The notes under the pieces: generated by a model | Databases searched by the model: none | What the model saw: only the letters and a program-made list of their open reading frames with translations | Told to the model about the DNA's origin: nothing | From: Candidatus Gastranaerophilales bacterium | Lineage (GTDB): Bacteria > Cyanobacteriota > Vampirovibrionia > Gastranaerophilales > Gastranaerophilaceae | Direction of reading: 5' to 3' | Assembly: GCA_944323155.1 (NCBI GenBank) | Contig: CALURL010000008.1 | Location: 1-64,000 of the forward strand | DNA length: 64,000 bases | Made by a program: the position numbers and the translations under genes | Shown here: piece after piece, positions 22,190 to 62,416 of the stretch | How positions within the stretch are numbered: position 1 is the first letter of the stretch | Layout of the letters: each line of letters begins with the position of its first letter

Positions 22190-22218
22190 GTAAAAACTTC
22201 CATTCTGGAAGTTTTTAA
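22190..22218 (-). terminator. Terminator of the prepilin-like gene
   Basis: A 10-bp hairpin AAAAACTTCC/GGAAGTTTTT with loop ATTCT. The T run on the minus strand lies about 35 nt past the stop at 22254. Confidence 0.75.
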
Positions 22219-22253: not shown

Positions 22254-23060
22254 TTACCATGGATAATCGTCTTTTATCTGCCAGCCGTCATACTGGATAA
22301 GACCACCACACCAAGCGCCTGAAAACTTATTATTTGAGTCATATTTACATCCTCTGGCACCATTCAACAAATTCTCTCTTGTTTGGCCTATCCCATACAT
22401 ATTAATTTTCGATGAATTTGGTTCAATTATTAAAGTAAAAACATCTCTTCCATAAATATTAGGACCTTTTTTACCATTTATGTCAACCATAATAAAAATT
22501 ATATAACCATATTTTGTAACACCGCCATGATTGGCGCCACCATCATTATCATAAGCTAATTTAACTACCATACCATCATTCATTATAAAACGATAATCGT
22601 TATAACTTGATTGATTCGCAGACACACGTAGCGAGCCGTCACGATTATATATTTCATAAGAACACTTTGTTCTTCCTGATGTACCAGAGGGGCAATTTTC
22701 TACTTTTTTAATATTTGGGATTAAATATTTATTTGCAAAATTGTTCAAAGCACTATTAGTTTCTGAGGCATCCAGCCCGCTAACATACCCCCAGCCGGAC
22801 ATATCGCCGTAATCCTTCTGTGCCATAACAAGTGCCTGACTTATTGTTGTATAAGCTTTCTTTAATTGAGTTACTGTTACATTTTTTTGATAATTTAAAA
22901 TTACAGAAGGTAAGGTCATTGCAGCAACAACACCTATAATTCCTAAAGTTATCAAAACTTCCGCTAAAGTAAATCCTAGTGACTTCTTAAATTTAATACA
23001 TACAATATCACTACTATAACAAGTATATGTAGGTTGGGCTTTCAGCCCAACAAATTTCAA
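22254..23060 (-). CDS. Type IV pilin/type II secretion pseudopilin-like protein (body of a split frame)
   Basis: The prepilin signature GFTLAEVLITLGIIGVVAAM is clear: Gly at -1, Phe +1, Glu +5, then a hydrophobic helix. A globular domain with Cys pairs and a GWG/WCGG-rich C-terminus follows. This frame opens only at a weak TTG (23060) and its leader runs through a GTTGGGC hairpin repeat. A strong AGGAGG site and ATG lie upstream at 23128, but a ten-G tract puts them one base out of frame. With 8 or 11 G the two frames fuse into one about 54-residue leader plus pilin. As sequenced the gene is probably off or poorly expressed. Confidence 0.85.
   Translation of the reverse strand: MKFVGLKAQPTYTCYSSDIVCIKFKKSLGFTLAEVLITLGIIGVVAAMTLPSVILNYQKNVTVTQLKKAYTTISQALVMAQKDYGDMSGWGYVSGLDASETNSALNNFANKYLIPNIKKVENCPSGTSGRTKCSYEIYNRDGSLRVSANQSSYNDYRFIMNDGMVVKLAYDNDGGANHGGVTKYGYIIFIMVDINGKKGPNIYGRDVFTLIIEPNSSKINMYGIGQTRENLLNGARGCKYDSNNKFSGAWCGGLIQYDGWQIKDDYPW
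23033..23051. repeat. GTTGGGC hairpin repeat
   Basis: Perfect 8-bp arms GTTGGGCT/AGCCCAAC with a 3-nt loop. It lies inside the leader coding region of the prepilin-like gene. A related palindrome with the same GTTGGGC core occurs at 55062-55081, so this may be a dispersed REP-like element. Confidence 0.6.
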
Positions 23061-23074
23061 TATATTACCTGAAA

Positions 23075-23128
23075 CTACCTCTGCGCCTGTGCCCCCCCCC
23101 CGTGAGCACGTCTTATCTCTTTGTACAT
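23075..23128 (-). CDS. Leader frame of the prepilin-like gene, cut off by the G tract
   Basis: An ATG at 23128 lies 3 nt after an AAGGAGGAAT ribosome site. The frame MYKEIRRAHGGGAQAQR stops at TAG after 17 codons because the ten-G tract shifts it. One more G, or two fewer, would join it to the pilin frame without a stop. As a separate 17-residue product it has no expected function. Confidence 0.7.
   Translation of the reverse strand: MYKEIRRAHGGGAQAQR
23092..23101. repeat. C10/G10 homopolymer, candidate phase-variation tract
   Basis: Ten consecutive C on the plus strand (G on the coding strand) start ten codons into the leader frame. Such tracts are highly unlikely by chance in DNA this AT-rich, and are typical sites of slipped-strand mispairing. 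Confidence 0.8.
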
Positions 23129-23170
23129 AAATTCCTCCTTTATTTTATATATTAATATTATAAAATATGA

Positions 23171-61360: not shown

Positions 61361-62416
61361 ATGGCAACAGAATCCAGAAACAAAATGACATTTGAACGTT
61401 TAAAATATTATAAACATCTCGGGGGGGGGGCACTTGAATGCATTGCCAGCAGGCTTTCACGGACTCCAAAACCTCTGTGTTTTTCACTTATGGTTACAAG
61501 CAAATGTAATTGCGACTGTGATTTTTGTTTCTGGAAATCTAAAAAAGGTCAAGACGATATGCCGACTGATGAAATCGTAAGACTTTTGACAGAAGCCGGA
61601 CAAATAGGTTATATGGATAGCATTCTCTGGGGTGGCGAACCTCTTATGAGACAAGATTTTACAGAAATATGCAAAGCCTCTCATGATGCAGGTTTATATA
61701 CAAAAATCGCGACAAACGGCTGGTTTTTGGAAACTAATCCCGGATTTGCAAAATATACAGATTTGATGTTTGTATCACTTGATGCTATTGGAAAAGCTCA
61801 TGATGATATTCGTCATATGCCTGGAATTTGTGATAAAGTTATGAGCGGTATTGAATACCATAAAGTTCACTCTCCGAAAATGAGAATTTATGTCTGCTGT
61901 ACAGTTTCAACTCAAACTAACTTTGAACAAATTAAAGAAGTTGCACAATACTGCAAAGATGCTGATATATTATTATACTTTACTGTTAATAAAGCTGCTT
62001 CAGTACCTGACGAAGCAGAAAATGTTGTTGAAACAGAACTTGAAAACGAACAATTAGCAGAAATGTTTATAAAAATTAAAGAACTCAAAAAACAAGGATA
62101 TCCAATTAGAAATTCATACTATTTCATGGATTACATTATTAATAAGAAAACATACTATGAATGCCACTGGCCAAGAATTGCAACTGTTATCTATTCAAAC
62201 GGAGAAATGCTTCGCTGTTATGACAGAAAACCTTTTATCAGCGTAAGAAACAGATCTTTGAAAGATGTTATAAAAGATCCTCTGTTTATTGAAACAGTTA
62301 ATAAATGCAAAGACTGCAAACTAGCCTGTGTTGGCAACTACGCGCTTGACGCATCAGGTTTGTGGAAACTTGAGTGGCCGGCTATTAAATCATTAATGGA
62401 AATTGCTATTACTTAA
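61361..62416 (+). CDS. Radical SAM protein with a C-terminal Cys-rich region and a G10 tract
   Basis: The 351-residue protein has the radical SAM motif CNCDCDFC (C49, C53, C56), a WGGEPLMR segment for SAM binding, and C-terminal Cys residues (ECHWPR, RCYDRK, CKDCKLAC) like a SPASM or twitch extension that binds a second cluster. Codons 20-24 include ten consecutive G (61421-61430), read in frame here as Leu-Gly-Gly-Gly-Ala. A change of tract length by one or two would truncate the protein before the catalytic core. A GAGGGG site precedes the ATG. It likely modifies a peptide or a cell-surface component. Its specific reaction is unknown. Confidence 0.87.
   Translation: MATESRNKMTFERLKYYKHLGGGALECIASRLSRTPKPLCFSLMVTSKCNCDCDFCFWKSKKGQDDMPTDEIVRLLTEAGQIGYMDSILWGGEPLMRQDFTEICKASHDAGLYTKIATNGWFLETNPGFAKYTDLMFVSLDAIGKAHDDIRHMPGICDKVMSGIEYHKVHSPKMRIYVCCTVSTQTNFEQIKEVAQYCKDADILLYFTVNKAASVPDEAENVVETELENEQLAEMFIKIKELKKQGYPIRNSYYFMDYIINKKTYYECHWPRIATVIYSNGEMLRCYDRKPFISVRNRSLKDVIKDPLFIETVNKCKDCKLACVGNYALDASGLWKLEWPAIKSLMEIAIT
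61421..61430. repeat. G10 homopolymer in the radical SAM gene
   Basis: Ten G in a row lie about 60 nt after the start codon. GGG codons are not favoured in AT-rich DNA, so the tract looks selected. It is a candidate slipped-strand switch, with the gene in frame at this length. Confidence 0.8.

Follow-up and report, generated by a model that had tools for sequence, protein, structure and literature searches.

The DNA analysed here, referred to as the window, is a stretch of 64,000 nucleotides from a Candidatus Gastranaerophilales genome (contig CALURL010000008.1, positions 1 to 64,000). On its minus strand, a ribosome-binding site (RBS) and an ATG lead through a short leader into a run of ten guanines (G10), behind which a prepilin gene lies in a different reading frame. 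The window contains the following features.

23134..23140, minus strand: ribosome-binding site AAGGAGG (sequence)
23102..23128, minus strand: ATG start (23128) and nine-codon leader MYKEIRRAH (sequence, translation)
23092..23101, minus strand: G10 tract, putative frame switch (sequence, re-translation, genome comparison)
23075..23077, minus strand: TAG ending the leader frame at G10, i.e. the off state (sequence, translation)
22977..23091, minus strand: linker from the tract to the prepilin, open in the prepilin frame only (translation)
23033..23051, minus strand: inverted repeat GTTGGGCTGAAAGCCCAAC, copy of a dispersed genomic repeat, in frame in the linker
22932..22976, minus strand: prepilin cleavage/methylation motif GFTLAEVLITLGIIG (Pfam N_methyl PF07963, E 1.4e-5)
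22254..23060, minus strand: prepilin ORF as it stands, from TTG 23060 (sequence)
22973-22257, minus strand: mature pilin
22191..22217, minus strand: terminator-like hairpin behind the prepilin gene (consensus scan only)
61421..61430, plus strand: second G10 tract of the window, in frame within a radical SAM gene
61361..62416, plus strand: gene for a radical SAM protein, intact at G10 (PF04055, E 2.4e-11)

Directly after G10 the minus strand reads CACAGGCGCAGAGGTAG, and the leader frame ends at TAG 23077-23075, after 17 codons in all; the distance from ATG 23128 to TTG 23060 is 68 nt. Re-translation in silico gave open lengths of 290, 20, 17, 291 and 21 aa for G8, G9, G10, G11 and G12, respectively, i.e. 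leader and prepilin ORF form a single frame of 290/291 aa with 8 or 11 G. This agrees with the frame logic put forward in an earlier, sequence-only reading of this DNA, according to which 8 or 11 G join leader and pilin while 9 or 12 G lead to a stop. The G tract and the offset prepilin frame are thus confirmed, except that the tract is preceded by nine codons (MYKEIRRAH) and not by ten, as counted before. By shuffling, runs of G8 or longer are expected 0.12 times in the window, and 6 overlapping matches, derived from the two G10 tracts, were found. The RNA families searched at this locus gave no match.

The encoded protein carries a class III signal, with the G|FTLAE motif followed by a hydrophobic helix, and its match to PF07963 is above the cut-off. 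The model of the mature pilin (pLDDT 88.8) comprises a 53-residue N-terminal helix (3-55) and a beta-rich domain. Profile comparison matched PilA, geopilin and GspG of solved structure (E 4e-6 to 0.009) in the N-terminal helix only, and a whole-fold search of the PDB with the model yielded no significant match. Two paralogues are 75% and 72% identical to this pilin, and the genome also encodes a prepilin peptidase (PF01478 at C6:49789-50187).

The genome to which the window belongs (G000; 1.79 Mb, 34 contigs) was examined by DNA and pattern searches. With the leader as a DNA query, dozens of partial copies were obtained, and the proposal that the same leader might precede other prepilin genes was borne out in dozens of cases. 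In total, 93 G tracts of 8 or more were identified in the 1.79 Mb by pattern search. The prepilin N_methyl motif gave 91 matches; a tract lies within 650 nt upstream in 75 of these 91 genes (on the strand of the gene, 65 read G and 10 read C), the other 16 being without any. The window locus is therefore one member of a set of about 75 genes in one small bacterial genome. The sequence-only reading had named a uniform length of ten as the observation that would speak against switching. Exactly ten is indeed the length of 72 of the 92 tracts read in this assembly, but other lengths between 7 and 14 are present as well (11 in 11 tracts, and few at 7, 8, 9, 12 and 14).

The reading frames were compared in 56 same-strand prepilin cases with a clear start. 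An RBS and an ATG were called in all 56, and the tract starts at a codon boundary after the Shine-Dalgarno (SD) site and ATG in 55; the sole case with another codon phase (L035) has 11 bases and is again off frame. Throughout this set the prepilin frame is one off and fully open, and the on state needs 11 (or 8) G, i.e. a length of n = 2 mod 3. The C-tract copies agree: their leader is unrelated and their tract lies in another codon phase, yet 11 is again required. The same-strand set contains 48 G10 copies (off), 4 G11 copies (on), 2 with G12 and 1 with G9, and further on copies are L034 and L056 (C11), L069, L080 and L096 (G11), and L070 (G10, other phase). The on state is found in about 10 of 74 prepilins, which is below the one third expected for random lengths, a comparison that serves only as a guide since the copies are related.

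The linker is under coding constraint. Between tract and motif, the prepilin frame contains 2 stops in 1940 codons, both in a decayed copy (L084), whereas the remaining two frames of the same DNA contain 319 stops in 3817 codons (8%). Even dispersed repeats inserted in linkers, e.g. GTTGGGCTGAAAGCCCAAC at 23033-23051, leave the frame open. An open linker frame would otherwise be hard to explain, which argues for translation through the tract. Sequestration of the RBS was also considered and rejected: an anti-SD-like stretch lies behind the tract in 22/56 cases, but the predicted accessibility of the SD site was no different from that of shuffled sequences.

Some linkers and prepilin-motif proteins have peculiarities of their own. 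A dispersed inverted repeat (GTTGGGCT..AGCCCAAC) is found in intergenic DNA as well as in frame inside prepilin linkers, with copies at window positions 23033-23051 and in L007, L008, L011, L027 and L029. A tandem repeat of the CTACGCACGTAGATAYCTGCAC type, read as ATHVDTCTNVR in some prepilins, is present in the linkers of L041, L056, L114 and L024. Cysteine-rich EGF-like repeats follow the tract in the prepilin-motif proteins of L069, L070, L080 and L116 (three of the four on), and L096:2-1333 (G11, on) and L101 (G10, off) encode near-identical large prepilin-motif proteins with haemagglutinin-like NTAxG repeats.

Closely related copies differ in tract length. The tracts of two neighbouring paralogues at L072 are 10 and 12 long, and those of L096 and L101 are 11 and 10 long; over 100 flanking bases the two pairs differ at 3 and 2 positions, respectively. 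In five genomes, 34 of 89 close pairs are unequal in length; none of the 20 close pairs of genome G055 differ, all being identical at 12. A search for a second genome of the species, performed across genome contigs with the pattern CAC-G8..13-CACAGGC, matched 14 unrelated genomes and no conspecific copy.

This gene arrangement is spread through the family. A run of at least eight G ahead of a TLAE motif is present in 6 of 13 genomes (own included), the reversed pattern giving no match in the same 13, and G10 or longer is present in 35 of 117 family genomes. In a sample of the phylum, the pattern was found in 49 of 107 family genomes vs 1 of 137 others (that one reads TFAE), although the TLAE motif suits the pilins of this family more than typical TLIE pilins, so that absence elsewhere is unproven. 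Leaders vary between genomes (MQTMIEI.., MNRFNLN.., MLKNTAITELCP..). Tract lengths in the relatives range from 9 to 14 and both states are present, with 8/22 genes on in G047, 5/28 in G055 and 5/17 in G082. The modal length is 10 in G000, 12 in G055 and G082, and 10-11 in G047.

Tracts are also found in eight genes of G000 that do not encode pilins, and these represent the usual classes of contingency genes (GT2, GT8, capsule synthesis, nucleotidyltransferase, radical SAM). Besides the radical SAM gene of the window, genes for a nucleotidyltransferase (L045, G10), a Mur ligase (L094, G10), a capsule synthesis protein (L118, C10) and a predicted membrane protein with no Pfam match (L054, C10) are intact at ten; a GT8 gene (L086) is intact at G11 and a GT2 gene (L057) at C14, while L102 (C10) is broken. 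Thus 7 of the 8 are on vs most prepilins off (Fisher p 4e-5). This shows that ten is a general preferred tract length in this genome. In the Mur-ligase-type gene (L094:571-1998) the in-frame G10 lies mid-gene, which would be costly if the tract is hypermutable and the gene essential. In 10 of 11 unrelated non-pilin tracts a C directly follows the G run, in excess of what the base composition would give (p 8e-6 at 25% C), the loci being L045, L050, L054, L076, L086, L094, L106, L118, L120 and window position 61431.

We consider it probable that about 75 individual prepilin genes of this genome undergo phase variation by slipped-strand mispairing, with off as the common state. In each of these genes, an RBS and ATG of its own are followed by a short leader, the poly-G (or poly-C) tract, the linker and finally the class III prepilin. 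During replication, mispairing would alter the tract length. A tract of 11 (or 8) would place leader and prepilin in one frame, and the pre-pilin would be made, while with 10 bases translation would stop within about 20 codons and the gene would be off. A population would then be composed of different cells with different combinations of pilins. As in contingency loci, the tract lies in an ORF and is longer than expected by chance, unit changes of its length switch the ORF in silico, and the lengths of near-identical paralogues differ. We infer that switching is frequent in living cells, that genes in the off state are not expressed and that the pilins made are built into pili.

The proposal of slipped-strand switching made in the sequence-only reading finds partial support in the gene anatomy, the frames, the near-identical paralogues of different length (G10/G12, G10/G11) and the other lengths and states of the relatives, while the predominance of tracts of exactly ten stands against it. 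The narrowness of the length distribution is the greatest problem, since tracts that slip freely would be expected to scatter. The uniformity needs a further cause: a mutational attractor at 10, gene conversion, RNA-level slippage, or selection that keeps the library silent could each contribute. Moreover, one off frame is strongly favoured (G10 over G9/G12), whereas random drift among off states would use both. Loss of mismatch repair as a cause of tract instability is ruled out, since genes for MutS1 and MutL are present in this genome.

The uniform G10 and the single off frame in G000 would also be expected if the switch operated at the level of RNA, i.e. if the tract were constant and polymerase slippage or ribosomal frameshifting gave some in-frame product from the off prepilins. 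A homopolymer of ten is able to slip during transcription, and a stop in the leader frame lies just behind the tract. The required shift, however, is +1 at G10 in G000, -1 or +2 at G12 in G055 and G082, and none for many G047 genes. Since its sign changes from genome to genome, a single conserved mechanism of recoding is disfavoured, and the conserved direction of shift at a conserved site that characterizes programmed frameshifting is not found here. G11 and C11 copies within G000 require no shift, and unrelated genes are in frame at G10/C10, so that this length is not specific to shifted genes. We therefore regard an RNA-level switch as unlikely.

It is very improbable that the off prepilins mainly form a silent reservoir, donating sequence by gene conversion to a few expressed pilins, with the tract as a recombination start site. 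The many similar paralogues (such as those with 75% and 72% identity to the window pilin), mostly off, would fit such a role, and in deriving pilin diversity from a reservoir of paralogues the set resembles Neisseria pilE/pilS. In that system, gene conversion draws on incomplete silent cassettes, the pilS cassettes being without a 5' end, whereas every gene here is complete with its own start; silent copies that have no start of their own are not found among the same-strand copies, and every copy retains its RBS, ATG and open frame. In addition, an intramolecular G-quadruplex is impossible from a single G10 run.

Long homopolymers are prone to sequencing and assembly errors, and the sequence-only reading had itself pointed out that the length might be wrong; the real tract would then be 11 and every gene on. 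A systematic loss of one base is unlikely, because it would break unrelated genes with a mid-gene tract. Those for glycosyltransferases, a radical SAM protein, a nucleotidyltransferase and a Mur ligase are uninterrupted at G10/C10 or at another length of their own; among the intact unrelated genes, five have a tract of exactly 10, a sixth has 11 and a seventh 14. Lengths of 11, 12 and 14 were assembled elsewhere in the genome and the frame logic varies between genomes, which leaves little probability for such an error. Expression of the prepilin from a downstream start of its own (e.g. TTG 23060, from which the ORF is open), with an irrelevant leader, is hardly credible, since an in-frame start with an SD-like site lies within 240 nt behind the tract in only 10/56 paralogues and such a start does not require a linker open right up to the tract.

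The tracts of G000 also show a strand polarity. The G strand is constant within nearly every contig, and prepilin genes pointing the opposite way carry C10/C11 (L009, L034, L041, L055, L056, L067, L084, L093, L114 and L117). Scored against the G-type flank motif, the flanks of the C tracts gave a mean of +10 on the G strand and -19 in gene orientation, compared with -27 (sd 9) for random sequence. The orientation of the tract cassette in this genome thus follows the G-rich strand and not the gene. The G strand is the G-richer strand in 9/9 stretches of 20 kb, and contig C1 has its last plus-strand tract at 37 kb and its first minus-strand tract at 130 kb, with the skew reversing between them near 127 kb. 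Two weaker tracts in C3 violate the rule, and two minority-strand prepilins of G055 have G tracts, so that the polarity is not general in the family. A bolder and rather doubtful interpretation is that a cassette of about 25 bases (YTAC-G10-CAAGCGCGTA), present in dozens of surface genes, would have its orientation set by replication rather than by the gene, and that nearly the whole pilin repertoire, lying one base out of frame, would be read out by rare DNA slippage or by RNA-level slippage. This would amount to a genome-wide stochastic display of pilins, in which the default length silences the library.

The opa family of Neisseria is far smaller than the prepilin set described in this study. 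In this family of paralogous surface proteins, a CTCTT repeat lies in the leader-coding region of each copy (PMC3960869); each prepilin copy likewise has a leader repeat of its own, the opa repeats being pentameric. Neisseria pilC1/pilC2 offers a precedent for a poly-G tract inside the coding frame of a type IV pilus component: a change from G10 to G9 turns the gene from on to off (PMC5231331). PilC, however, is a tip adhesin encoded by one or two copies, whereas here pilin-like subunits are concerned, with about 75 copies per genome, and, unlike pilC, the switchable set spans a family of non-proteobacterial bacteria. Campylobacter jejuni NCTC11168 has 29 poly-G/poly-C tracts, mostly 8-11 long, that turn surface-modifying genes on or off by frame, and colonies assayed at 28 loci gave 257, 214, 431, 77 and 9 for G8 to G12 (PMC4965091). 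Both genomes have many G/C tracts placed so that their length sets surface genes on or off by frame, and the mode of 10 is the same, but the distribution in C. jejuni is broader than in G000. There are three times more tracts here (counted from at least 8, and from at least 7 in C. jejuni), mostly in one paralogous prepilin family and in the presence of mutS1 and mutL. Our literature search found no report of phase variation, including that of pilins, in Gastranaerophilales, nor of a comparably large set of pilin genes that could be switched in this way. A few pathogens are known to use one-letter switches, and the scale and the pilin target are notable here.

If this interpretation is correct, automatic annotation calls most pilins of this family truncated or frameshifted, and pilin repertoires are probably undercounted. 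The genome would also serve as a natural experiment on why the tracts are kept a single base away from the on length, and on how G tracts are polarised with respect to the replication strands. The repertoire would be several times that of the classical contingency sets of Campylobacter and Neisseria and concentrated in one protein family. A lineage for which the literature searched reports no phase variation would thus display a combinatorial set of about 75 pilins.
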